Part shown: one piece after another, positions 6,182 through 18,868 of the stretch
Layout of the letters: each line of letters opens with the position of its first letter
How positions within the stretch are numbered: position 1 is the stretch's first letter
NCBI GenBank assembly: GCA_025774205.1
Contig: JALGWK010000006.1
Location: 1-18,868 of the forward strand
From: a bacterium
GTDB lineage: Bacteria; Blakebacterota; Blakebacteria; Blakebacterales; Blakebacteraceae
Direction of reading: 5' to 3'
Length of the DNA stretch: 18,868 bases
The notes under the pieces: model-generated
Database searches by the model: none
Told to the model about the DNA's origin: nothing
What the model saw: the letters and a program-made list of their open reading frames with translations, nothing else
Position numbers and translations under genes: made by a program

Positions 6182-7444
6182 TCAGTCCTTCCTGGCCAGA
6201 CCGCTGTCGGGATAGAGCTTCCTGGCGCACGCCGGGCAGATGCTGTGGCTGAATTCCACCAAGGAGTGTTCCTCGATGTAGACATCCATCCGTTCCCATT
6301 CCCCGGCATCATTCCGAATGTTGTGACAGCTTGAGCAGACCGGCAGCAGCCCTTCGAGCATGCTCACCTGTTTCAGGGCGTCCTGCAGTTCACTGATGAG
6401 CAGTTCCCGTTCCCTCTCGGCCAGTTTCTTCCGGGTCACATCCCTGATCACGACCAGGTGTCCGCCCGTCATCACCTGGCCGATAAAGAAGGGTGTCACC
6501 TCCGCCTCGATGATACGAGGCTTGTCATCTTCATCCGTTTCGATCTCCACCGGTGTCCCGACCCGGTCGGCAGGATCGTCGAGATCGTCTTTCAGAATGG
6601 GGAACTCCTCCGTCAACCTGCTGCCGATCGGCACCTTGCCGTGATGCCGCAGCAGGAAGAGAGCCGCCCGGTTGGCATCCACCACCCGCCCTTCGGTATC
6701 AACCACGATCATGCCGTCCGACATCCCTTCCACCAGGGCTGTACGGGCGACCGGCAGGAGTGAGAGGAGGCCATACCGCGTGATGGCGACGGCCATGAAG
6801 AGACCGGTCAGGGTGAAGGCGATCGGCGCCCAGTCGAGCCCGGGAACCGGGTTGGCTTCAGAGAGGTAGATCAGATTTCCGATCCACGGCGCCAGGGTGG
6901 CGAAGAGTATCAGGAGCGACTGGGTCTGGAAGAGATGCCGCTGCAGGAAGGCCGTGCGGAGCATTCTCACTGTGCCGACGAAGATGATCAGGTAGGCCCC
7001 GATCACCCAGACCGGGAACCAGAGGCCTCGATCGTAGAGCAGGTTCCCGGTAATGGCGTCGAGGCTCAGCTTCTGCCAGTGCAGATGATGCCAGCCGTTC
7101 GTCCAGACCATGAGGATCGTTACGATCGTCAGGATCCAGCCGAAGGCGTACAGGTACCGGACCCAGTTCTCCTGCCATCGGGTATAGGCGATCGTGGAGG
7201 CCAGAAAGAGCGGCGGGATCGGAGCGATACCGAAATACTCGAAGCGCATCCAGAACGCCTTGTTATCGATCCCCTGGGCAGCGACTTCGAGGGCGCTGGT
7301 GAACGCGTAGATACTGATCACGATCAGGAGGAATGCCAGCTGAGGGACCTCGTTCAGCCTCCGGTTCCGCCAGGCGATGACGGCGACCGCCAGGGAGATG
7401 GTGGCTGTCAGCAGGAAGGCGATCGATATGATTGTTATCTGCAT
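6182..7444 (-). CDS. 7TM-PAS membrane sensor without kinase, cysteine-rich tail
   Basis: This 420-residue protein has about seven transmembrane helices in residues 1-235, in the style of the histidine-kinase N-terminal 7TM region. That region ends with 'ITRYGLLSLLPVAR'. A PAS domain follows (about 236-340, 'GMSDGMIVVDTEGRVVDANRAAL' to 'VIRDVTRKK'), then a short coiled segment (341-365). The tail (about 366-412) is 'LPVCSSCHNIRNDAGEW' plus 'EFSHSICPACARKLYP', with CxxC pairs at C370/C373 and C403/C406. This tail is a recurrent ending of PAS and receiver proteins in deltaproteobacterial-type genomes and may bind a metal or heme. No H-box or ATPase domain is present, so it cannot autophosphorylate. 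It lies 6 bp downstream of the SDR gene, with only a weak GA-rich RBS, and is probably cotranscribed with it. Its layout mirrors the N-terminus of the divergent kinase at 8419. The ligand is unknown. Confidence 0.8.
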   Translation of the reverse strand: MQITIISIAFLLTATISLAVAVIAWRNRRLNEVPQLAFLLIVISIYAFTSALEVAAQGIDNKAFWMRFEYFGIAPIPPLFLASTIAYTRWQENWVRYLYAFGWILTIVTILMVWTNGWHHLHWQKLSLDAITGNLLYDRGLWFPVWVIGAYLIIFVGTVRMLRTAFLQRHLFQTQSLLILFATLAPWIGNLIYLSEANPVPGLDWAPIAFTLTGLFMAVAITRYGLLSLLPVARTALVEGMSDGMIVVDTEGRVVDANRAALFLLRHHGKVPIGSRLTEEFPILKDDLDDPADRVGTPVEIETDEDDKPRIIEAEVTPFFIGQVMTGGHLVVIRDVTRKKLAERERELLISELQDALKQVSMLEGLLPVCSSCHNIRNDAGEWERMDVYIEEHSLVEFSHSICPACARKLYPDSGLARKD

Positions 7445-7450
7445 ACTGAT

Positions 7451-8245
7451 TCACTCATCTTCCAGCCAGCCGGAGAGTCTGAAACGGCGGACGAGCGTGT
7501 CCTTCAGGTATGTATTCGCAATATCGGCACCGATCAGCAGCCTCGGTCCGATGAAGGGAACGATACTTCGGGCCCGTTTATTAAGCATTCCCCGGATCAT
7601 AACCCGCGCTACCCGTTCCGGTTCGATCTTGCGCGAGATCCCGGGTACCTGCAGAGAAGTCGTCATCGCGGTGTCGGTTCTCGATGGGAATACCGTCGTC
7701 AGGTGAACACCGGTCCCATGCAGTTCCTGGCGAAGGATGCCGGCCAGTGACGCTTCGGCTGCCTTGCCTGCGGCATAGGCTGATTCCTTCGGCACTCCCG
7801 AAAGCGCGTCTACCGATGAGACCACTCCCAGTCGACCCCATCCTCCCTCGATCATATTGGGAACGACCGCCTGGAAGAGATGAAGGACACCCAGATAGCT
7901 GGTTCGCCACTGATCCAGATGCTGAGCAGGATCGCTCTCCAGCGCCAGGCCCCGGATGTAGGTGCCGGCGGAAGCGATGGCAATATCGATCCCTCCCCAG
8001 GCATCCCTGATGGCTTTGACGGCATTATTGAGGGCGTCCCGGTCGGAGACATCCGCCGGCGCAACCAGGGTTGGACCGGGATTCGCTGAGCACTCCCGCC
8101 GGAGTTCTTCCAGGGGATCACGCCGCCGGGCGACAAGACCGACCGATACACCGGCGGCGGTCAGGTCCCTGACCATGCAGCTGCCGATCCCGCCGCTGGC
8201 GCCGGTCACGATGGCGCGCTTACCGGTAAACTGATGTTTGGACAT
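7451..8245 (-). CDS. Short-chain dehydrogenase/reductase (SDR)
   Basis: This 264-residue classical-type SDR has the cofactor motif TGASGGIG (14-21). 'ARRR' (39-42) after beta-2 favours NADP(H). The active-site residues are S144, Y157 and K161 ('VVSSVDALSG', 'YAAGK'). Two usual features differ: the NNAG motif reads ASAG (91-94), and the fourth catalytic residue (Asn, in 'NxxG' of helix 4) is Ser116 ('SYLG'). The basic, hydrophobic C-terminus ('RARSIVPFIGPRLLIGA') could associate with membrane and suits a lipid-type substrate such as a ketone or ketosphinganine, but this is inference. I chose the ATG at 8245 because GGAG with an extended GA run lies 7 nt upstream and the Rossmann fold begins eight residues later. 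The upstream in-frame start near 8407 has no such support. It forms an operon with the kinase-less sensor and is divergent from the kinase/synthase block. Confidence 0.85.
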   Translation of the reverse strand: MSKHQFTGKRAIVTGASGGIGSCMVRDLTAAGVSVGLVARRRDPLEELRRECSANPGPTLVAPADVSDRDALNNAVKAIRDAWGGIDIAIASAGTYIRGLALESDPAQHLDQWRTSYLGVLHLFQAVVPNMIEGGWGRLGVVSSVDALSGVPKESAYAAGKAAEASLAGILRQELHGTGVHLTTVFPSRTDTAMTTSLQVPGISRKIEPERVARVMIRGMLNKRARSIVPFIGPRLLIGADIANTYLKDTLVRRFRLSGWLEDE

Positions 8246-8418
8246 GCTCTCTCTCCACCGGACGTGTCGGGCCTGATCCGGTCCACTGACCTTGAAACGG
8301 TGATTATCCACTGTATTCATAACCTGCGCCAGTTGGATATATGAACACCTTATCAGATGTACATGGAGATTGACGGACCTTGACCTGCTGTCTCGGAATT
8401 GCGACAATCCATCTTCTC
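8246..8418. promoter_or_regulatory. Divergent intergenic region between SDR and hybrid kinase genes
   Basis: This gap must hold promoters for both directions. On the minus side, GGAG (plus-strand CTCC at 8253-8256) with a GA run is the SDR ribosome binding site. On the plus side, TTGAAA (8292-8297) and TATTCA (8314-8319), 16 bp apart, are a fair but weak sigma-70-like pair. On the minus strand, GATAAT (8303-8308) could be a -10. The heptamer TCCACTG occurs twice in direct orientation (8282-8288 and 8307-8313), 25 bp apart, and could be a regulator site. None of these is decisive. Confidence 0.35.
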
Positions 8419-10707
8419 ATGGGTGAAATACACTACATCAGCTGGCTGTCGTTGATCTCGGGACTGGCGAACGTGGCCCTGGCCGCCTTCGTGATGGGGA
8501 AAGACTCACGTTCCCGCGTGAACCGGTCGCTGGCGTATCTGGCGCTGTGCTTCGCCGGCTGGAGTATCGGGGAGTTCTTCATGCGTACGGCCGGGACTCC
8601 CGATATGGCCATGCAGTGGGTGCGCCTGGAAGCCCTGGGGTATGTTGGAATGGGGAGTGTTTATCTCGTCTTCTCCCTCCTCTACAGTGAACAGACACGG
8701 TTGCTGAAGAAGAACTGGTTCCGTGCCGTCATCATTGTTCCGCCCTTCATCTTCCTCGGACTCATCTGGTTGACCAGAGCGGTCTATCCTGAAATCGAAG
8801 TCCATGTCTGGGGGAATCGCCCGGCGGTAGGTCCCGCTTTCTATCCCCTGGTGATCTATCTGGCTCTGGAGTGGGTGGCGGGCGGCATGGTCTTCTGGCG
8901 GCGGGTCAAAACCCTGGGTACCGAACACGAACGGCGGGCAACGCTCTATCTTCTGGTCGGAACGGTTCTCCCGATAATCGTGGCGACGATAACTGCCGGC
9001 ATCTTCCCGATCATGGGCGTCGATGTTCCTGAAATGGCCGCCAACATCAGCATCATCAATGCCGTTATCCTGGTATACATCATTCAGCGGTATCAGGTTC
9101 TGACGTTCGTGCCCTCACGGTTCGCTGACACCCTGGTGGCCTCCACCGACGACGCCATCATCGCGGCAGATATAGATGGCATCGTGATCTATTTCAGTCC
9201 CGGCGCCGAGCAGATGTTCGGGTACCAGGCGGGGGAGGTCATCGATCTGCCGGTCGCGAATCTGTTCCTGCAAGGGGAAGATGAATGGCACAATCTCAGC
9301 TACCTGCTCCGGCAGGGGGAAGCAGTCCGGAATTACCAGTCGGAGATGCTCACCGGCGATCAGCAGACCCTGACCACCAGCCTGACGCTGAGCTATCTCA
9401 GGGATGAAACGGACAGCCGCATCGGTACAGTCTCGGTGATCCACGATGTCACCGAAATGGTCCAGCTGCAGAACCAGTTGATGAAAACCCAGCGGCTGGA
9501 GAGCCTCGGCTCACTGGCCAGTGGGATCACGCACGATTTCAACAACATCCTCAGCATCATCCTGCCCTGGACCCAGATGCTGCGATTGAAACGCAGCAAC
9601 GATTCACTGGTGGTCGAACACGCGGAGCGGATCGAAAAGGCCGCCACCAGCGCGTCTGAACTGGTGCAGAGGCTCCTGACGTTCGCCCGCGGCAGCACCA
9701 GGCAGCCGGTCGTTCTGAATCCGAACCGGTTGATCGAAGATACGGTGGAATTGCTGGAGCGTACCCTGCCGCAATCGATCAGCATTGTGACCGATCTGAA
9801 ACCGGATCTGCCCGATGTCGAAGCGGACTACCTGCAGTTCGAGCAGGCCCTGATGAATCTGATCCTGAATGGTGTGGATGCCATGCCCGGCGGCGGAAGG
9901 ATAAACATCTCCGTCCGCAGATTCCTGACGGAGATAGAGACACCCCGCAAGGACTTCAACCTCCCGGCCGGGGACTGGGTGATTCTCTCTGTTCGTGATT
10001 TCGGACAGGGGATCACGGTGGAACATCTGGCTCATATCTTCGATCCCTTTTTCACCACCAAGCCCGGTGGCAAGGGAACGGGTCTGGGATTGATGATCGT
10101 GGAGACCTTCGTTCGGAATCACGGCGGGTACGTCGACGTTTACAGCCACCCGGGTGTGCAGACGACCTTCGAGCTTATCCTGCCCGCGACCAATAAACGA
10201 CTGAGTGAAGAGATTTCCTATCCGGGTGATCCGAGAAAAGGTCGTGGTGAACGGATCCTGGTTGTTGATCGGAACCCGGAGATCCGGGAAACCCTGATCG
10301 AGCTCCTTGAAGAACTCAACTACGTCGCTCAAGGCAGCGAGGATTTCGCGTACAGTCTGGCAAAGCTGGTACAGGCGAAAATCGATAAGACCACGCCCAT
10401 GCCCGACCTTCTCGTCGTGGAGATCGAGGAGCTGCCCGGCGGTGGCAGAGAGTCTTTCGAACTCCTCAACCGGGTCACCCCCCGGGCCCGGATTCTCCTC
10501 ACCAGCGCCGGTGTCCTGCCTGACCAGTCGCTGATCGGGCCCCATACCGGTATCCTCGGCGTACTCTATAAACCATTCGATCTGAATGAAGTCATGCGGG
10601 CCGTTCGTGACACCCTCGACGGCAAGGAATTCACACCTGCCCGTGGGGGCATCTCAGCCGCGCTGCCCACACACCAGAAGACAGAATCGGCCAGGTTCGA
10701 TGAATAA
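8419..10707 (+). CDS. 7TM-PAS hybrid sensor histidine kinase with degenerate receiver
   Basis: This 762-residue protein (numbered from the ATG at 8419) has about seven transmembrane helices in residues 7-225, then a PAS domain (about 235-348, 'ASTDDAIIAADIDGIVIYFSP'). The H-box is 'SLASGITHDFNN' with H372. The ATPase domain shows N484 ('LILNGVDAMPGGG'), D527 ('DFGQGI'), 'IFDPFFTTKPGGKGTGLGL' (F- and G2-boxes) and 'TTFELILP'. All residues needed for autophosphorylation are present. The C-terminal domain (about 612-733) has receiver shape with T695 and K718 kept ('LLTSAG', 'YKPF'). However, the phosphoacceptor Asp is Glu668 ('LLVVEIEELP') and the second acidic-pair residue is Arg618 ('VVDRNP'), so it is a pseudo-receiver. 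An alternative TTG start at 8380 has GGAG 11 nt upstream; the ATG has no clear RBS. The 3' end overlaps the alpha-oxoamine synthase gene by 8 bp. Confidence 0.88.
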   Translation: MGEIHYISWLSLISGLANVALAAFVMGKDSRSRVNRSLAYLALCFAGWSIGEFFMRTAGTPDMAMQWVRLEALGYVGMGSVYLVFSLLYSEQTRLLKKNWFRAVIIVPPFIFLGLIWLTRAVYPEIEVHVWGNRPAVGPAFYPLVIYLALEWVAGGMVFWRRVKTLGTEHERRATLYLLVGTVLPIIVATITAGIFPIMGVDVPEMAANISIINAVILVYIIQRYQVLTFVPSRFADTLVASTDDAIIAADIDGIVIYFSPGAEQMFGYQAGEVIDLPVANLFLQGEDEWHNLSYLLRQGEAVRNYQSEMLTGDQQTLTTSLTLSYLRDETDSRIGTVSVIHDVTEMVQLQNQLMKTQRLESLGSLASGITHDFNNILSIILPWTQMLRLKRSNDSLVVEHAERIEKAATSASELVQRLLTFARGSTRQPVVLNPNRLIEDTVELLERTLPQSISIVTDLKPDLPDVEADYLQFEQALMNLILNGVDAMPGGGRINISVRRFLTEIETPRKDFNLPAGDWVILSVRDFGQGITVEHLAHIFDPFFTTKPGGKGTGLGLMIVETFVRNHGGYVDVYSHPGVQTTFELILPATNKRLSEEISYPGDPRKGRGERILVVDRNPEIRETLIELLEELNYVAQGSEDFAYSLAKLVQAKIDKTTPMPDLLVVEIEELPGGGRESFELLNRVTPRARILLTSAGVLPDQSLIGPHTGILGVLYKPFDLNEVMRAVRDTLDGKEFTPARGGISAALPTHQKTESARFDE

Positions 10708-11983
10708 ACCCAATGACAAGCCACTGAAGTTCGATGTCCGATCGGGATTGCGGCGGATCATGAGTCAGGCCCGCCGGGTCGATCTGAAAACCCGGGCCAC
10801 CAGTTTCGAGGAATTCTGGCAGGCTGCCGTCGACGCCAATGAATCGCTTTATTTCCGTGAGATCATCGGGCCTCAGGGACGGGAAGTCACCATTCGGGAC
10901 AGTTTCACGGGTGAAATCCGCACCATGTTGATGTTCGGATCCAATAATTACCTTGGACTGGCAGACAATCCCTATGTGAGGGAAAAAAGTATTGAAGCGC
11001 TCAAACAGTACGGCACCGGCCTCGGCGGTCCCCCCCTGCTGAACGGGTACACCCAATTGATGAGGGAACTCGAGGAGCGGATCGCCGCCCTCAAGGGGGC
11101 CGAGGCGGCCATTATCTATCCGACCGGCTATCAGACGAACCTGTCACTGGTCACGTGTCTGCCCGAAAAAGGGGACCTGGTGCTCTGCGATGAGGCCCAC
11201 CATGCCTCACTCTTCGATGGCCTGAAGATGGCGGGTGTCCCCCACAAGACCTTCAAGCACAACGGCCTGGAGGACCTGGAGGAGCAACTGATCGAGTTCA
11301 GGTCCGACGCCCGGGATGCTTTCGTCTTCGTAGAGAGCGTACATTCGATGAACTCGGATCTGGCGCCCATACCCGAGGTCGCCGCCCTCTGCAGGAAGTA
11401 CACCTCCTACCTGATCGTTGATGATGCCCACGGGACAGGCATCCTGGGGGAACGGGGCCGGGGAGTGGGTGAACATTTCGATATGGAGGGTGAAATCGAT
11501 ATCGTGATGGGTACGTTCTCCAAGGCCTTCGCCTCTGTGGGCGGGTTCGCCGCCGGTCCCTCTCATCTCATCGCCTATCTGAAGTTCTACTCCCGACCCT
11601 ATATGTTCTCGGCCGCCCTGCCGCCTTCCGTCCTGGCCGGGGTCCACGCCTGCCTCGATCTCCTGGAGAAGGAGCCGGAGCGGGTCCAGAACCTGCGTGA
11701 TAACGTCGGCTATGTGGTCAAAGGGCTCGAGGAGCAGGGAATAGCGACCTCCTCCCAGGGAGGGTGCGTACCCCTGCTGGTTCCCCCGGAGATCAACATC
11801 CGCAGAGCGGCCTTTGCCTTCCATGAACTGGGATTGTTCATGAACCCCATCGAGTGGCCCGCGGTTCCCAGGGAGAAACAGCGGTTTCGCATCTCCCTGA
11901 TGGCGACCCATACGCGGGAAGACCTCGATACCCTGCTCGAGGCGATCGGCAGGGTCTGGGCCCTCGATGCTGTGCGTGAATAG
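10700..11983 (+). CDS. PLP-dependent alpha-oxoamine synthase, serine palmitoyltransferase-like
   Basis: This 427-residue fold-type I PLP enzyme belongs to the alpha-oxoamine synthase family, which includes BioF, KBL, serine palmitoyltransferase, HemA/ALAS and CqsA/LqsA. These enzymes condense an acyl-CoA or acyl-ACP with an amino acid, with loss of CO2. Seen here: 'FGSNNYLGLADNP' (79-91), 'HHASLFDG' with H168 at the PLP-stacking position, 'DDAHGTG' (D241, H244), 'GTFSKAFASVGGF' with Schiff-base K275, and C-terminal 'RFRISLMATHT'. The lysine-region sequence looks more like bacterial serine palmitoyltransferases than KBL ('GTLGKALGG') or BioF ('GTFGKGFG'). The usual GSR motif near 110 reads GPP, and the His that normally follows (H of 'xxH..LE') is Met121. 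The ATG at 10700 overlaps the kinase stop by 8 bp. AGG (10693-10695) is the only RBS element. No bioA, bioD or tdh is nearby, which argues against biotin or threonine roles. Confidence 0.85.
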   Translation: MNKPNDKPLKFDVRSGLRRIMSQARRVDLKTRATSFEEFWQAAVDANESLYFREIIGPQGREVTIRDSFTGEIRTMLMFGSNNYLGLADNPYVREKSIEALKQYGTGLGGPPLLNGYTQLMRELEERIAALKGAEAAIIYPTGYQTNLSLVTCLPEKGDLVLCDEAHHASLFDGLKMAGVPHKTFKHNGLEDLEEQLIEFRSDARDAFVFVESVHSMNSDLAPIPEVAALCRKYTSYLIVDDAHGTGILGERGRGVGEHFDMEGEIDIVMGTFSKAFASVGGFAAGPSHLIAYLKFYSRPYMFSAALPPSVLAGVHACLDLLEKEPERVQNLRDNVGYVVKGLEEQGIATSSQGGCVPLLVPPEINIRRAAFAFHELGLFMNPIEWPAVPREKQRFRISLMATHTREDLDTLLEAIGRVWALDAVRE

Positions 11984-11997
11984 TCTGCAGTATTGAT

Positions 11998-12999
11998 ATG
12001 GAAGCTATCCTCGTTACGGGCGGGACCGGCTTCATAGGCGACGCCCTGGTCAGATCACTCCTCCAGCGGAACTATCAGGTCCGGATCATGTCACGCCAGC
12101 CGGTTTCTCCGGCCGCGTTGCGCCTGGAGTCTATCGGGGCGGAGATCGTGGCGGGTGACCTTCTGGAACCGGCTGTTCTGCCCCGGGTTATGGACGGATG
12201 TGAGGGACTCTTCCACCTGGCGGCCATGTTCGAGATCGGCTCGAGGAAGCGGGCCGAGATGTATTCGGTGAATGTCGAAGGCACCGAATCCCTTTTTAAC
12301 GCCAGCCATATGGCAGGGATAGAACGAATCGTCCACGTCAGTACGGTCCTGGCGCTGGGGCCGACCACCTCCGGACAGCAGCCGACCATCCTGGAACCGG
12401 CCGACCTGAGGGAGAGTCACCCGCGGGAGACGTTCACCGGACCATTCGAGGAAACCAAGCATCTGGCCCATCGGATCGCCCTGCTGCATGCCCGACAGGG
12501 CGCGAACATCATGGTGGCCTGTCCCGGGACGGTGATCGGCAAGGGGGATCAGAGCGAGCTTGGAACGGCGCTCCGCCTGAACATGCGGGGGCGACTCCCG
12601 TTCCTGGCGGGGGCGACCTCCTGCTTCAGCTTCGTCGGTCTTCAGGATACGGTGGAAGGACTGATACTTGCCTATGAGAAGGGTCGTCCGGGCGCTATCT
12701 ATCCGCTGGTATCGGAAGTTCTCAGTCTTGGGGATCTCAGTCGTCTGGCGGCCGGGATCGCCGGTGTAACTCCTCCACGGTGGGATCTGCCCCGGACATT
12801 GACCAGAATGGGACTTCCCCTGGTCAATCTGCTGGCCAGACTGAACGGAGGCCGGCGGATATACAGTCGGGAAGCCCTGGCGATCCTCGACTGTGACTGG
12901 GGCTATGACGCCTCTATTACGAAAGCAGAACTCCACTGGGAGTGCAGTTCCATCGCCGATGTACTGGAGAAGCTGGCCCCGATTATCACCGAACACTGA
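11998..12999 (+). CDS. Extended-SDR NAD-dependent epimerase/reductase-like protein, catalytic Tyr replaced
   Basis: This 333-residue extended SDR has the dinucleotide motif VTGGTGFIG (6-14), 'GDLLEPAVL' (53-61), 'GLFHLAA' (70-76), 'VNVEGTESLFNAS' (91-103), 'VHVSTVLALG' (112-121, S115) and 'CPGTVIGKGD' (175-184). Overall it resembles HpnA-like and 3-beta-HSD-like NAD-dependent epimerase/dehydratases, the group that includes the bacterial ceramide reductase CerR. At the YxxxK catalytic site the sequence reads 'GPFEETK', so the Tyr is Phe150 while Lys154 is kept. Normal chemistry would therefore be impaired or altered, and a binding or regulatory role is possible. The gene follows the alpha-oxoamine synthase by 14 bp, with no strong RBS, and is likely in the same operon. 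The product could act on the 3-keto product of the synthase; this is inference from order alone. Confidence 0.82.
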   Translation: MEAILVTGGTGFIGDALVRSLLQRNYQVRIMSRQPVSPAALRLESIGAEIVAGDLLEPAVLPRVMDGCEGLFHLAAMFEIGSRKRAEMYSVNVEGTESLFNASHMAGIERIVHVSTVLALGPTTSGQQPTILEPADLRESHPRETFTGPFEETKHLAHRIALLHARQGANIMVACPGTVIGKGDQSELGTALRLNMRGRLPFLAGATSCFSFVGLQDTVEGLILAYEKGRPGAIYPLVSEVLSLGDLSRLAAGIAGVTPPRWDLPRTLTRMGLPLVNLLARLNGGRRIYSREALAILDCDWGYDASITKAELHWECSSIADVLEKLAPIITEH

Positions 13000-13098
13000 C
13001 TTTCAATCAGCTTCCGAGACCGGGAAGCGGGTTATTCATCCCCCGCGGATGAGCAGTGTGTATTGCTTTGTCGTCGACGGTAGTACACAATACCGGTC
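13000..13098 (+). promoter_or_regulatory. Short intergenic leader before HD-GYP gene
   Basis: This 99-bp gap holds several small hairpins: CTTCC/GGAAG around 13011-13027 and CATCC/GGATG at 13037-13051, each with 5-bp stems. There is no T-tract, no clear promoter and no clear Shine-Dalgarno before the ATG at 13099. It may be a processing or attenuation site inside a longer operon, or a separate weak promoter region. Confidence 0.25.
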
Positions 13099-14556
13099 AT
13101 GGAGATTCGACCCCCATCCATACTCATCGTCGACGACGATCAATACATCGTAGATCTGGTGGTGGAGTTCCTGACCGGCCTCTCGATGGAGTGCGTCGGA
13201 TTCACCGATCCCCGGGAAGCCCTTTCCTGCCTCGAGAAACGGACCTTCGATCTTGTTCTGACAGATCTGAGGATGGGTCAGGTCAGCGGCATGGATATTC
13301 TCCGGGCCGCCAAGGATCCCGATCCTGCCGGTACCATGGTCGTCATGATGACCTCCTATCCCACCGTCGAAGACGCCATTGAGGCCATGCAGAGCGGAGT
13401 GGAGAACTACATACTGAAACCGTTCTCCCTCGATGCCCTCGAGCATATCGTGGGGGTCAGCCTGGAAAAGCAGCAGCTCGCCCGCGAGAACATCAACCTG
13501 AAAGAAAGCCTGGCTCTCTACCGGGCCAGTGAAGCGCTCGAAGCCCTGGAGGCCCCTCTGGAACTGACCGAGTACCTCCGGATGGTCCTGGAGATCGCGA
13601 CCGGTGAACTGGGGGGTGACTCGGCCAATCTGGTTCTCTTCGAAGGAGCATCAGATGACCGCAGGGTGGAAACCAGGATCGACCAGAATCGCTCCGGGGA
13701 GGAGAACGGATTCGGCAACGAGGCGATGCTCGGGCTGGCTGACAGGGTCATGGATGAGAGTGGATCACTGGTGATATCCGATCAGGAAGGTCCCGGCCCC
13801 CTGATGGTCCTGCCGCTCAGATCGGGGAAGGATCTCCTGGGCCTGCTGGCCGTACGGCGGCGTTCGGGCAGTCAGGACTTCACTCCCGCCCAGGCGAGGA
13901 CGCTTTCCATTATCGGTTCCGGGGCCGCTGTCGCGGTCAAGAACGCCCGGCTCTTCAACTCGCTGCAGGAACAGTACCTCGGCGCCATCCGGTCGCTGGT
14001 GGCGGCAGTGGAGGCGAAGGACCCGTATACCCGCGGTCACAGCGAGAAGATCGCCCACTACGCTCACCTCCTGGCCGGGCAGATCGGTGCCGATCAGGAA
14101 ATCGTGGACGGGATGCGGGTGGCCGGATTGCTCCATGATGCCGGCAAGATCGGTGTTCCCGAAAACGTCCTCCTGAAAGATGGGCCCCTGACTGATGAGG
14201 AATACACCATCATCAAGGAGCATGCCGCGATGAGCGAGCGGATCGTGAAACCGCTGCATCTTCCCGAGCATGTTATGAGGGCGATTGCCGAGCACCATGA
14301 GCGGCTTGACGGAAGCGGCTATCCGAAAGGTCTGATGGGCGATGAGATAACTCTTGCCAGCAGGATACTTGCGGTTGTGGATGTTTTTGACGCCCTCACC
14401 AGTGACCGGATATACCGCAGGCGCCTGAGTCGCAAGGAGGCCTTTGAGGCCATCGACCGTGAGGTCCTTGAGTTGAAGCTGGATGGCTCGATCGTCGATG
14501 TCTGGAAAGCCCTGGTCGAAGATGACGTTGTGATCGACGTTGAAGCGTTGGATTAG
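13099..14556 (+). CDS. REC-GAF-HD-GYP response regulator, predicted c-di-GMP phosphodiesterase
   Basis: This 485-residue regulator starts with a complete receiver domain (about 5-120): acidic pair D12/D13 in 'ILIVDDDQ', phosphoacceptor D56 ('LVLTDLRMG'), T85 and K107 ('ILKPF'). A GAF-type sensor domain follows (about 145-285, 'LMVLPLRSGKDLLGLLAVRR'). The HD-GYP domain (about 295-470) has 'TRGHSEKIAHYA' (H314), 'LLHDAGKIGVPE' (H346, D347), 'EHAAMSE', 'AEHHERLDGSGYP' (H399, H400, GYP 407-409) and 'DVFDALTSDR'. All metal- and GYP-motif residues are present, so an active cyclic-di-GMP phosphodiesterase controlled by phosphorylation is expected. It lies 99 bp after the epimerase gene on the same strand, in the cluster with the hybrid kinase. 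That kinase lacks a working receiver of its own, so this protein is an attractive partner (inference). The end converges with pbpC, 12 bp apart, without a visible terminator. Confidence 0.92.
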   Translation: MEIRPPSILIVDDDQYIVDLVVEFLTGLSMECVGFTDPREALSCLEKRTFDLVLTDLRMGQVSGMDILRAAKDPDPAGTMVVMMTSYPTVEDAIEAMQSGVENYILKPFSLDALEHIVGVSLEKQQLARENINLKESLALYRASEALEALEAPLELTEYLRMVLEIATGELGGDSANLVLFEGASDDRRVETRIDQNRSGEENGFGNEAMLGLADRVMDESGSLVISDQEGPGPLMVLPLRSGKDLLGLLAVRRRSGSQDFTPAQARTLSIIGSGAAVAVKNARLFNSLQEQYLGAIRSLVAAVEAKDPYTRGHSEKIAHYAHLLAGQIGADQEIVDGMRVAGLLHDAGKIGVPENVLLKDGPLTDEEYTIIKEHAAMSERIVKPLHLPEHVMRAIAEHHERLDGSGYPKGLMGDEITLASRILAVVDVFDALTSDRIYRRRLSRKEAFEAIDREVLELKLDGSIVDVWKALVEDDVVIDVEALD

Positions 14557-14568
14557 GGGTGTTTCCGG

Positions 14569-16881
14569 CTACTCCACAATAAGACTGATCCTGGTCGATC
14601 GGCCCTCATCATCCATGCAGACGACTTCATGCTGGCCCGGTTCAGGCAGGTAGAACACCGGATCGGCAGGGTGTGAACTGGTCAGCAGCACTCCATCCAC
14701 GAACCAGTAGAGGGTCCGTATCCCGCTCGAGACAGAGGCTTCGAGACGGATCTGCTGGTCCTCGATCGGTATCCCCGACCTCAGCACATACCGTACCCCT
14801 GCGGCAGGAGACTTGATCCGGGGACCATCACCTCCCGCCAGTGATCTGCACGATGTGTCGTGGGTCGGGATATCGGGAACAGGATGACCGTTCTCATGCA
14901 GCCAGGTCGCGATAGTCGACGGCCACTGGACGAAGGTCTCCCAGTGGAACGGACGGTCGGTCCAGCAGGACGGGCAGAGACGGAATCCGGTCTCATCATC
15001 CACGGCCACGGTCACATGGAGGTCGCAGGTCCGGTGAGGGGAGGTGTCGAGGATATGGTATTCGCGCTTCAGATGGGTGCAGTTCTCACCGGGCAGCAGG
15101 CCGGACAGAGCGCAGACCTCCCGTTCTCCAACCCCTGCCGGAGGATCGAACCAGCTGCCGGCATCGCCTTCCAGGGCTGTAGCCAGATCGAAGAGGAGGG
15201 GGCCGGCGGCATCCGCGCCGACCAGTGACGGACTCCCCTCACCGGAGAAATTCCCCAGCCACACCCCGATCGTCCAGGTGGGGTTATACCCGATGCTCCA
15301 GGCGTCGCGGTGACCGTAGGACGTACCGGTCTTCCAGGCGATCCTGGGCAGGTGGATCGAGAATTCCCAGGTGTCGGGGAAATCGGGACGACGCAGCCGC
15401 GAGAGCATGTCGGTCAGTATGAAGGCGGCTTCCGGGGAGAGGAGCTGACGACCTTCTTCGATCACATCATCTTCCAGCAGCCGGTACTGACGGTAGACCC
15501 CATCGCTGGCCAGGGTGGCATACAGGTTGGTGAGATCGAGCAGGGTGACCCCGGCGCCTCCCAGTACCAGTGAGAGACCGTAGTACTCATACGACTCGGT
15601 CAGAGTGGAGAGACCACCCCGTCGGAGGAGGGTATGAAAACGGTCGGCTCCCAGGTTGTAGACCAGGTTCACGGCCGGAACGTTCATCGAGTGGGTCAGA
15701 GCCTCTTCGGCCGTGACCACACCCTGGTACTCTCCGTCGTAGTTCTTCGGGATATAGCCGCCGATGTTGAGTGGGACGTCCTCCAGCAGGGTCGACGGAC
15801 TGATGAGGCGCCCGTCGAGCGCGAGACCGTAGGCGAACGGCTTGAGAGCTGACCCGGGTGAACGGGGAGCCGTGGTGCCGTTGACCTGACCGGCACTCCC
15901 GGACTGGAAGAATCCCGCTGATCCGACGAGGGCCCTGACCGCGCGACTCCCGTTCTCCATCACCACGATCGCCCCGTTGCTGATGCCGTGCGAACGGAGG
16001 GTCAGCATGTACCGGTCGAGCAGACTCTCAGCCAGATGCTGCACTTCAGAATCGATGGTACTGACGAGATCCCCGGCGTCACTGCCGTATCTGCTCTTCA
16101 CCATGTCCCCCAGGTGGGGCGCGTGGAATGGCACCTCGGCCCGTGTTCCGGGGACCGCTTCCAGAAGCGCCCGGCGATGCTGTTCACGATCGATATTCCC
16201 CCGGTCCAGCATGCGGCCGAGCACATCATCACGCCGGACGCGTGCGCCCACGGGGTTCCTGTCCGGCCTGATCCTGGTGGGGGAGTTGGGCAGGACCGAC
16301 AGGAGCGCGGCCTCCCCGGGACCAAGGTCGGAAGCGGACCTGCCGTAGTAGAAGAAAGCCGCCGCTTCGATTCCCTGGATGTTCCCGCCATACGGCGCCA
16401 GGTTCAGATAGCATTCCAGTATCTCATCCTTCGAGAACCGCCACTCCAGCTGGAGAGCCCGGAACGCCTCCACCAGTTTGGCCCCGATCGTCCTCGCTTT
16501 CGGATCCATGAGTCGGGCGACCTGCTGGGTGATGGTGGAGCCGCCGCTCACGATCCGCCCGCTTCTGATGTTCTGGATCAGGGCCCGGATGGTCGCGACC
16601 GGATTGATACCCGGATGCCAGCGGAACCAGCGATCTTCAAAGGCAAGCGTGGCTTCGATCACATGGGGCGAAACATCCTCGAGTGTGACCGGGAAATGGA
16701 ACGCTTCTTCGCTGGAGATATACACCCGCAGGGGATGGCCATCCCGGTCGAGGACCCGGGTCGCCGAAGGCGAGACAAGTTGATCGACAGGGAGAGGGAA
16801 AACGAGTGAGAGTCCGCCGAAGACAAGCAGGGTGCCCAGGAGCACGATCCCCGTTCCCTTCACGATCGAACGGATTCTCAT
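14569..16881 (-). CDS. pbpC: Penicillin-binding protein 1C, bifunctional peptidoglycan synthase
   Basis: This 770-residue class A penicillin-binding protein is numbered from the ATG at 16881. One membrane helix (about 12-34) is followed by the GT51 transglycosylase domain (about 45-215), with catalytic 'AFEDRWFRWHPG' (E82) and 'GGSTITQQVAR'. The transpeptidase domain (about 270-565) has SxxK in 'SPGSALKP' (S344, K347), SxN in 'THSMNVP' (S398-N400) and KTGT (K517-T520). A cysteine-containing linker typical of PBP1C ('EVCALSGLLPGENC') and a C-terminal BiPBP_C Ig-like domain (about 685-770, 'RIKSPAAGVRYVL') follow. It polymerises and crosslinks peptidoglycan in the periplasm. The upstream neighbour is an alpha-2-macroglobulin, the same pairing as yfhM-pbpC of E. 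coli. A TTG at 16899 would overlap the macroglobulin stop (TTGA) and add six residues; neither start has a strong RBS. Confidence 0.95.
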   Translation of the reverse strand: MRIRSIVKGTGIVLLGTLLVFGGLSLVFPLPVDQLVSPSATRVLDRDGHPLRVYISSEEAFHFPVTLEDVSPHVIEATLAFEDRWFRWHPGINPVATIRALIQNIRSGRIVSGGSTITQQVARLMDPKARTIGAKLVEAFRALQLEWRFSKDEILECYLNLAPYGGNIQGIEAAAFFYYGRSASDLGPGEAALLSVLPNSPTRIRPDRNPVGARVRRDDVLGRMLDRGNIDREQHRRALLEAVPGTRAEVPFHAPHLGDMVKSRYGSDAGDLVSTIDSEVQHLAESLLDRYMLTLRSHGISNGAIVVMENGSRAVRALVGSAGFFQSGSAGQVNGTTAPRSPGSALKPFAYGLALDGRLISPSTLLEDVPLNIGGYIPKNYDGEYQGVVTAEEALTHSMNVPAVNLVYNLGADRFHTLLRRGGLSTLTESYEYYGLSLVLGGAGVTLLDLTNLYATLASDGVYRQYRLLEDDVIEEGRQLLSPEAAFILTDMLSRLRRPDFPDTWEFSIHLPRIAWKTGTSYGHRDAWSIGYNPTWTIGVWLGNFSGEGSPSLVGADAAGPLLFDLATALEGDAGSWFDPPAGVGEREVCALSGLLPGENCTHLKREYHILDTSPHRTCDLHVTVAVDDETGFRLCPSCWTDRPFHWETFVQWPSTIATWLHENGHPVPDIPTHDTSCRSLAGGDGPRIKSPAAGVRYVLRSGIPIEDQQIRLEASVSSGIRTLYWFVDGVLLTSSHPADPVFYLPEPGQHEVVCMDDEGRSTRISLIVE

Positions 16882-16895
16882 GCGATTCAGTCTCT

Positions 16896-18868
16896 TCAAG
16901 GCCGGATTACCCTGACCTGGCCGCTCGAAGACACGCTCCGCAGGGCCGGTTCATACATGCATTCCGCCAGGATCGGCGGCAGAACGAACTCACCCTCCGT
17001 GACGGCCCGGGCCGCGTAGTAGAACTTCCTCTCGGTTCCGCGAGGCAGGTCGAGGAAGATCAGGAGCCGGTCGTCGCGGATATCGATGTAATCCGGTTCC
17101 ACCGCGTTGTCAGGCAGCCAGGGCAGGGGAGCGCGGGAAGCCAGTCGCGGATTCTCGATCTCCAGACCTGCGGGCAGCATGTCGTTGACCACCACATTCT
17201 GGACCACCTGGCCGGGCGCTCTCAGGACGACCTCCACCACCACCATCTGCCCGTGTATCAGGCTGTCGGCGTTCAGCGCGACGCCCTCACTGTCCAGGTA
17301 GCGGCGACGCACCGTCAGACCGCGATCCTCCTCCGTGAAACTGAGTTTGCCGCCGATGTCATCGGCAGTGAGTGTCATGGTCTCGGAAGTGAGTTCCGAT
17401 CGCTCGGATCCATCGATCGTGATAGTTCCCTGGTAAGAACCGCCTGATTGTCGGCGCATGATCTTCCCGAGGGCCATGAACGCCCAGGCGTTCTCCTGGG
17501 TTGGGTTGTGCCCCACCGGCCGGTTCGCGCGTTCCGGGAGAGGTAATCGACCAGGATCGGGATGCCGGGATTGTCGGGATCGAAGTCGGCCAGAACGGCC
17601 AGCACGATGGCGTTGTCCCGGATCGAGGAGGAGAACGTCACCCCCGTTTCCCGTTCAGATTCCTGCGGCCGGACGGAGACCGGCAGAAGCTGCATTGCCG
17701 TCGAACGGTCACCGGAGAGCGCGAACGCGCCCGCCAGCAGGAACCGGCTCTCCTGGGGGAGCTGGTCGCCATACATCTCCATCTGATAGGTCATGGCGCC
17801 CCTCTCGGGCTTATCGAGGAGAGCCAGTACGTAGACGGCGTAGGCCTGCATCCGATGGCGCTGGATGACCGACCACTCGCTTACGCGCCGTGACCGGATA
17901 TCCCTTGAGTTGCCGGGCTGGAACAGGATCGTGCGCAGGTATCCGGTCCCTCTCCGGAAGACGCTGGCCGGAATGGAATAGCCTGTTTTACGGGCTTCCG
18001 AAAGGAAGTGAAGCGCATAAATGCTGCCCCACGAACTCACGCTGTTGCTGTTGGGCCAGAAGCTGAAGCCGCCGCCCTGCAGCTGCATCGCGGTCAGTTT
18101 CCTGATCGCTTCCTCAACATAGTATTCCGGCGCGTTGGTCTCGAAGAGAGTCGGTTCCACCTGCTGGGCGATATCCTTGAAGTAGAGCAGGGGAAAGGCG
18201 CTGGAGGTGGTTTGCTCGACGCAGCCATAGGGATAGCGGAGAAGCTCCTGGAGACTGCCGGAAAATTCGACGGCCGGGAAGGGGGTTACGGTAAGGGAAT
18301 ACTTCGCCGTTCCGGCTATCCAGTTATCCGGGAGTCGGAATGATGTTGATTCGTCCGGCTTGATCGATCCGGCACCGGTGAGCGATTCCCGGGGTGAAGG
18401 AGGTCTCACCGGGATTTCGACTTCCGCCCTGCTGTCGGTCCCGTTCCCTTCCGCGCGCAGAGTGAACTTCATGATCCCGGCGCTGGCCCCGGCCCGAACG
18501 AGGAATGAGACAGGGGCTTCTCTTTCGGCTGTGACCGGGATCTCCAGGGAGGTCTCACCAACGATCTGCGCCGGACCATCGGCCTCGAGGGAGATCCGGA
18601 AACTTCCGTCACGACCGGTCCCGTTGAATACGTTCACCGGGATCCGGAACACATCATCGGGGGCACAGAATCGCGGGTAGGTGGGTGTCATCACGATCGG
18701 ATCACGCACCAGCACCTCGCGGGATGAAGCTCCGAAGGTATTGCCCGCGGCCGCTACCGCCATGACCCGCAAGGTGCCATTGAACTCAGGCAGTTCGAAA
18801 CTGGTTCGGGCCTTGCCGTTCTGATCCACCTCCAGCAGGCCCGACCAGAGCGCCACCGGCTTGACCCG
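16896..18868 (-). pseudogene. Bacterial alpha-2-macroglobulin (YfhM-like), 5' partial, frameshifted
   Basis: This is the C-terminal part of a large periplasmic protease-trapping alpha-2-macroglobulin; its 5' end lies beyond the window. Visible are the macroglobulin beta-domains ('ALWSGLLEVDQNGKARTSF', 'FNGTLRVMAVAA'), the thioester motif 'YPYGCVEQTTS' (CVEQ at 18212-18223, intact), the alpha-helical thioester domain ('MQLQGGGFSFWP') and the C-terminal receptor-like domain ('NDMLPAGLEIENPRL', 'YYAARAVTEGEF'). The frame breaks inside the conserved 'RTGRWGTTQENAW' motif. The upstream frame runs off to a stop at 17375, while the correct frame resumes as 'TQENAWAFMALGK' and ends at 16896. An extra GGGTT at 17498-17507 is the cause, and removing it gives one 655-residue reading frame within the window. 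As read, the protein would lose the rest of its C-terminus. Its stop lies against the start of pbpC. Confidence 0.92.
17498..17507. repeat. 5-bp tandem duplication causing a frameshift
   Basis: On the plus strand GGGTT occurs twice in a row (17498-17502 and 17503-17507), read as AACCC AACCC on the coding strand. With one copy, the codons read 'GRWGTTQENAW', the conserved sequence of bacterial alpha-2-macroglobulins. With both copies, they read 'GRWGTTQPRRTPG' and the frame is lost. Confidence 0.92.

Follow-up and report, generated by a model that had tools for sequence, protein, structure and literature searches.

A conserved locus pairing an alpha-oxoamine synthase of an undescribed clade with a 7TM histidine kinase in Blakebacterota

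A four-gene block shared by two genera

The window analyzed here is the 18,868-nucleotide stretch at positions 1 to 18,868 of contig JALGWK010000006.1 (C405 of genome G000 in our set), from a 3.09-Mb Blakebacterota assembly of 527 contigs that is 86% complete. Its core is a block of four genes centered on an alpha-oxoamine synthase (AOS; 10700–11983, plus strand; Pfam PF00155). Directly upstream on the same strand is the gene for a hybrid histidine kinase (HK) with a seven-transmembrane (7TM) sensor domain and a degenerate receiver (8419–10707), and downstream lies a gene encoding an HpnA-like extended short-chain dehydrogenase/reductase (SDR) of the epimerase-like type (11998–12999; PF01370, E-value 2.3e-27; TIGR03466, 170 bits, under the cut-off). 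The fourth gene, encoding a classical SDR that is likely a reductase (7451–8245, minus strand; adh_short, PF00106, 8.8e-39), is divergent from the HK gene, and the 173 bp between them (8246–8418) is a putative shared promoter region. The likely SDR start is 8245, where the ATG is preceded by a ribosome-site match, GGAGAGAG, and alignment with the nearest relative agrees; the same alignment places the likely HK start at 8419. As the original prediction had noted, the HK and AOS genes overlap by 8 bp, with the HK stop codon at 10705–10707 and the AOS ATG at 10700.

The block has its closest named relative in a metagenome-assembled genome labelled "Candidatus Zixiibacteriota" (locus L034). The sequence of this locus is identical to contig C288 of G003, a genome from another genus of the same family and one of the four incomplete genomes in our phylum comparison set. 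The layout is identical, with the SDR gene on the minus strand and the HK, AOS and epimerase-like genes on the plus strand, and the products are 63–74% identical (SDR 63%, HK about 72–74% to the L034/L100 orthologue, AOS about 70%, epimerase-like protein 65%). The 8-bp overlap between HK and AOS in the window is a 15-bp gap in L034. The flanks, however, are different. In L034 a gene for an FAD-dependent oxidoreductase on one side, and genes for an S15 peptidase and a beta-propeller protein on the other, occupy the places held in the window by two further genes, those for a HisKA_7TM-PAS protein (6182–7444, minus strand) and for a response regulator of REC-GAF-HD-GYP architecture (13099–14556, plus strand). 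The peptidase gene following the block in L034 is on the opposite strand and unrelated. The same four-gene order amid changed flanks in another genus supports a functional unit, and the synthase-kinase module is real and conserved. Six linked genes had originally been predicted, and only the SDR, HK, AOS and epimerase-like genes are kept in the other genus; the pairing of synthase and sensor kinase, in two genera and in the same order, stands.

The HK matches the HisKA_7TM (5.7e-20), PAS, HisKA (1.8e-6) and HATPase_c (6.1e-24) families of Pfam. Its N-terminus forms seven helices in an AlphaFold model of modest confidence (pLDDT 65), and a fold search with the model of this domain gave general GPCR-like matches only, none with an E-value below 0.001. 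In both genera the phosphoacceptor Asp of the receiver is replaced by Glu, within the segment VVEIEELPGG in the window and IIEVEELPGG in L034, and one acidic pocket residue is also lost. Since the kinase's own receiver is dead, the signal must leave via another receiver.

Both SDR-type proteins had been taken for reductases. This is likely for the classical SDR, in which the TGxxxGIG and YxxxK motifs are intact, but less so for the epimerase-like protein, where FEETK replaces YxxxK in the window and in L034. The catalytic Tyr is thereby changed to Phe, which makes the reductase label doubtful. The epimerases linked to serine palmitoyltransferase (SPT) keep this Tyr, and the window protein is a distant relative of these, at about 30% identity.

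An alpha-oxoamine synthase clade marked by Pro-Pro

The catalytic set of the AOS is intact, with the pyridoxal phosphate (PLP) Lys275, the stacking His168, His244 (in DDAH) and Arg397 near the C-terminus; His168, His244 and Lys275 are invariant. In structure comparison the predicted model (pLDDT 92) is nearest to the SPT of Sphingobacterium multivorum (SmSPT, 3a2b, Z 51.3) and to KBL (Z 50.4), a tie, and amino-acid specificity is therefore not settled by structure. SmSPT (3a2b/8guh) is 34% identical over 391 residues and shares with the window AOS the PLP Lys, the stacking His, the Asn of the GSN motif and the GTFSK motif. The AOS stayed under every NCBIfam cut-off, with 341 bits for the CFB type of SPT (cut-off 640), 336 for BioF (cut-off 426) and 183 for the CqsA/LqsA type, NF005526 (cut-off 428). 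The enzyme is thus more SPT-like than CqsA-like, as had been predicted, although the NF005526 cut-off should be read with caution, as 364 bits was the score of a probable LqsA from Legionella that carries an in-frame stop. In Legionella gresilensis, an in-frame TAG interrupts a probable lqsA gene (L135, 1501–2655).

Phylogeny placed the enzyme elsewhere. In a tree of 113 AOS sequences, the window and L034 enzymes fell inside an unnamed clade of 46 members, with 67 sequences outside it (SH-aLRT 99; support 100/100 in a second, reduced tree run with more care). Forcing the window pair together with the 17 SPT-type rows cost 127.7 log units and was rejected by the approximately unbiased (AU) test (p-AU 6.3e-14). 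Forcing the AOS with CqsA and LqsA gave a p-AU of 0.093, short of formal rejection, with very long branches.

The clade has a simple mark in the substrate loop, which reads G-P-P-L-L-N-G in the window AOS. Pro111, at the position of Ser81 in SmSPT, is found in 46/46 clade members and 0/67 other AOS; Pro112, at the position of Arg82, is found in 44/46 and 2/67, respectively. Water molecules mediate the hold of Ser81 on the substrate carboxylate in SmSPT, and the loop shifts with a bulkier substrate (PMC10196870). The window AOS also differs from SmSPT in having about 25 more N-terminal residues. Another known relative is SulA, the cysteate acyl-ACP transferase of Alistipes finegoldii, which is alike in AOS fold and catalytic residues. 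Lys281 is the diagnostic position of SulA (PMC9304779), and the Ala305 found there in the window AOS rules out a SulA reading.

Outside the window phylum, members of this clade are mostly found in operons with UbiA-like, DAGK-like, ThiL-like, SDR and radical-SAM genes. Within six genes of the AOS, the 45 loci examined contained ThiL-like genes in 30 cases, DAGK-like in 29, UbiA-like in 27, radical-SAM in 21 and SDR in 13. Such operons (L035–L084; for example, L037:5025–9269, L080:4889–10700 and L065:6905–13321) are distributed over Ignavibacteriota, Calditrichota and Bacteroidota and, in part, Legionella. Their synthases are about 40–51% identical to the window AOS and share its Pro-Pro, and SDR and two-component genes are often near, as in the window. 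In contrast, the window block has no UbiA, DAGK-like kinase, ThiL-like or radical-SAM gene; in the window genome a UbiA relative was not found, and matches to ThiL-like proteins were weak, with no close relative. A pair of consecutive kinases ahead of a UbiA enzyme would fit the synthesis of a diphosphate donor. Our literature search returned nothing relevant on an AOS together with UbiA and a lipid kinase, a described pathway included, or on an AOS together with cyclic di-GMP (c-di-GMP), and for Zixibacteria and sphingolipids it returned passing mentions only.

In Ignavibacteriota, a multi-transmembrane GAF kinase and response regulators often adjoin the AOS operon, and at two Salinibacteraceae loci (L039 and L047) a membrane PAS kinase is upstream of the same-clade AOS. 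Two-component genes made up 31/204 (15%) of the genes within three genes of the clade AOS cores and 3/112 (3%) of those further out. An Omnitrophota locus (L078, 3317–6717), in which an AOS is directly followed by a HisKA_7TM-GAF kinase between fabF and the prfA-prmC-murA genes, at first resembled an independent case. Its AOS, however, is outside the clade, and its kinase is not PrsK (TIGR02916, 75 of 300 bits); we treat this locus as a lead.

Two variants of these operons were also seen. In a genome of the same genus as the window, the UbiA/DAGK/ThiL-like operon is present with an AOS of another type, with an SSR loop motif (L096, G001:C260, 3550–7799), so that the operon can occur without the Pro-Pro enzyme in some cases. 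In Bacteriovoracaceae (L070, 4465–10700, and L073), a Pro-Pro AOS lies beside a protein with PPDK/PEP-utiliser domains and a ThiL-like kinase, along with a small thymidylate-kinase-like protein and a DAGK-like kinase. Sphingophosphonolipids are known from a member of this group.

The window genome encodes three further AOS, on contigs C455 (SPT clade), C421 (KBL-type) and C490 (SulA-like). The SPT-type gene on C455 is divergent from an epimerase gene with the Tyr intact, and this type of synthase is present in 4/4 phylum genomes (L093/L192, G000:C455, 1–2101; L097, 8378–10780; also L101 and L103). The pair likely serves sphingoid-base synthesis in the window genus. Bacteriovorax and Ignavibacteriota genomes similarly have a separate GSR-type AOS besides the Pro-Pro AOS. 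With separate SPT- or GSR-type enzymes in the same genomes, the Pro-Pro enzyme most likely represents an additional activity.

Function of the locus and competing explanations

Taken together, the locus suggests a regulated, perhaps self-sensed lipid that belongs neither to a known sphingolipid pathway nor to a known quorum-sensing system. In the mechanism that we propose, the AOS would catalyze the condensation of an amino acid, which need not be serine, with a long-chain acyl thioester, giving a 2-amino-3-ketone. The divergent SDR would reduce the ketone, and the epimerase-like protein may bind or rearrange the product instead of working as a conventional reductase. The co-transcribed 7TM kinase would monitor the product or the state of the membrane and adjust the locus via a response regulator encoded outside the block, in the window genome perhaps the neighboring HD-GYP protein. 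We put the odds at about even (roughly 0.5) that this conserved four-gene locus makes and regulates a lipid in this manner. Several points weigh against it. The block was found in two assemblies only, both incomplete (86% and 63%), and contains no response regulator of its own. Profile and structure comparison both fail to separate amino-acid specificities, and the substrate and product of the AOS are inferred. Finally, the Fisher p of 4.5e-4 for the two-component enrichment overstates independence, as the loci are related.

A quorum-sensing-like arrangement is a rather unlikely alternative. Here the amino ketone or hydroxyketone made by the AOS would be released and would be the ligand of the 7TM kinase, in parallel with CAI-1/CqsS and LAI-1/LqsS. 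An AOS gene adjoining a multi-transmembrane histidine kinase gene, and conserved as a pair, is the arrangement of the cqs and lqs loci (PMC3376566); two SDR-type genes are near the AOS, and the Salinibacteraceae loci provide another membrane PAS kinase upstream of a same-clade AOS. However, the synthase resembles SPT more than CqsA in its profile scores, is away from CqsA/LqsA in the tree, as set out above, and has GTFSK and LNG motifs unlike theirs. The sensor differs as well. The receiver of CqsS accepts phosphate at D618 (review, PMC3376566), whereas the window kinase combines HisKA_7TM and PAS domains with a dead receiver, and the block lacks an LqsR-like regulator. In most genomes the clade belongs to large lipid operons with UbiA, lipid kinase and ThiL-like genes, and no ligand of a HisKA_7TM domain was given in the literature found. 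A lipid signal of independent origin, in which this AOS would make an amino-ketone or amino-alcohol detected by the co-transcribed HisKA_7TM kinase, seems to us more doubtful still. If true, synthase-plus-kinase signalling would have an origin outside the CqsA/LqsA lineage.

The original prediction had proposed that the kinase senses a lipid or amino-ketone made here, with c-di-GMP breakdown as the output, through phosphorylation of the adjacent HD-GYP regulator by the kinase. The epimerase-like and HD-GYP genes do follow the AOS on the same strand, the latter after a 99-bp gap. The regulator (PF13487, 2.9e-39; PF00072, 6.6e-23) has an intact receiver Asp and the motifs HDAGK and HHERLDGSGYP, and a kinase with a dead receiver requires an outside one. 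In G003, however, the orthologue of the regulator (62% identity) is on another contig, C338, beside genes for a 4HBT thioesterase and a UvrA-like protein, and the HK-AOS block runs there into the opposite-strand peptidase gene. A c-di-GMP output is thus not supported as conserved, and would be specific to the window genome at best. A promoter and terminator scan between the genes of the locus gave no more matches than shuffled sequence, and no shared signal linking HK-AOS to the HD-GYP gene was found. The lipid-to-c-di-GMP proposal is weakly supported, and we consider such a circuit quite improbable.

It could also be that the kinase and synthase are merely co-transcribed neighbors without a functional link, given that sensor kinases are common and that the block was found in so few assemblies. 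Order and spacing are nonetheless kept between genera while every flanking gene has changed, and the surroundings of this AOS clade are enriched in two-component genes. We consider simple co-transcription very unlikely. An ordinary sphingolipid pathway, with the AOS as SPT and the epimerase-like gene as the ceramide reductase CerR, is the least probable reading, although the AOS scores best against SPT profiles and structures and the epimerase-like protein is distantly related to the epimerases beside SPT-type genes. We reject it on the basis of the tree, the AU test, the loop motif and the separate SPT-type gene, which is divergent from an epimerase with the Tyr that the window protein has lost. 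In addition, the four phylum genomes, as far as they are complete, contained no FemAB_like (PF04339) protein, with a positive Caulobacter control; we take this to be the family of the bacterial ceramide synthase.

The locus defines an AOS clade that is recognizable and widely spread, with Pro-Pro in place of Ser-Arg as a simple mark. Several of the genomes checked carry an SPT-type enzyme besides. From their profile scores, such enzymes are likely annotated as BioF, KBL or SPT. Their product, once found, would point to an undescribed lipid across several phyla, and the conserved pairing with a kinase offers a direct route to asking whether the producer senses its own lipid.

Paralogues and flanking genes

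Beyond the block, E. coli genomes searched for SPT at the DNA level gave no match with the query used. Two AOS paralogues, on C490 of the window genome (L095) and on C132 of G001 (L098), have a Lys at the position of SulA Lys281 and, judged by this residue, are candidates for sulfonolipid synthesis in this candidate phylum.

Downstream, in the interval 14569–18856, alpha-2-macroglobulin-like genes precede pbpC (PBP1C) and share its strand; this pairing is a common one. The PBP1C gene was absent from the matches in three relatives, and pbpC is thus of no use for synteny. On the other side of the block, the SDR and HisKA_7TM-PAS genes are both on the opposite strand to the HK, as had been predicted, although the interval originally assigned to the locus omits the latter gene. 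Its product had also been described as a second sensor. The HisKA_7TM and PAS domains are indeed present, but Pfam detected no kinase domain. The protein ends in a CSSCHNIR...CPAC (CxxC...CxxC) segment, which has the look of a small output domain that binds metal.

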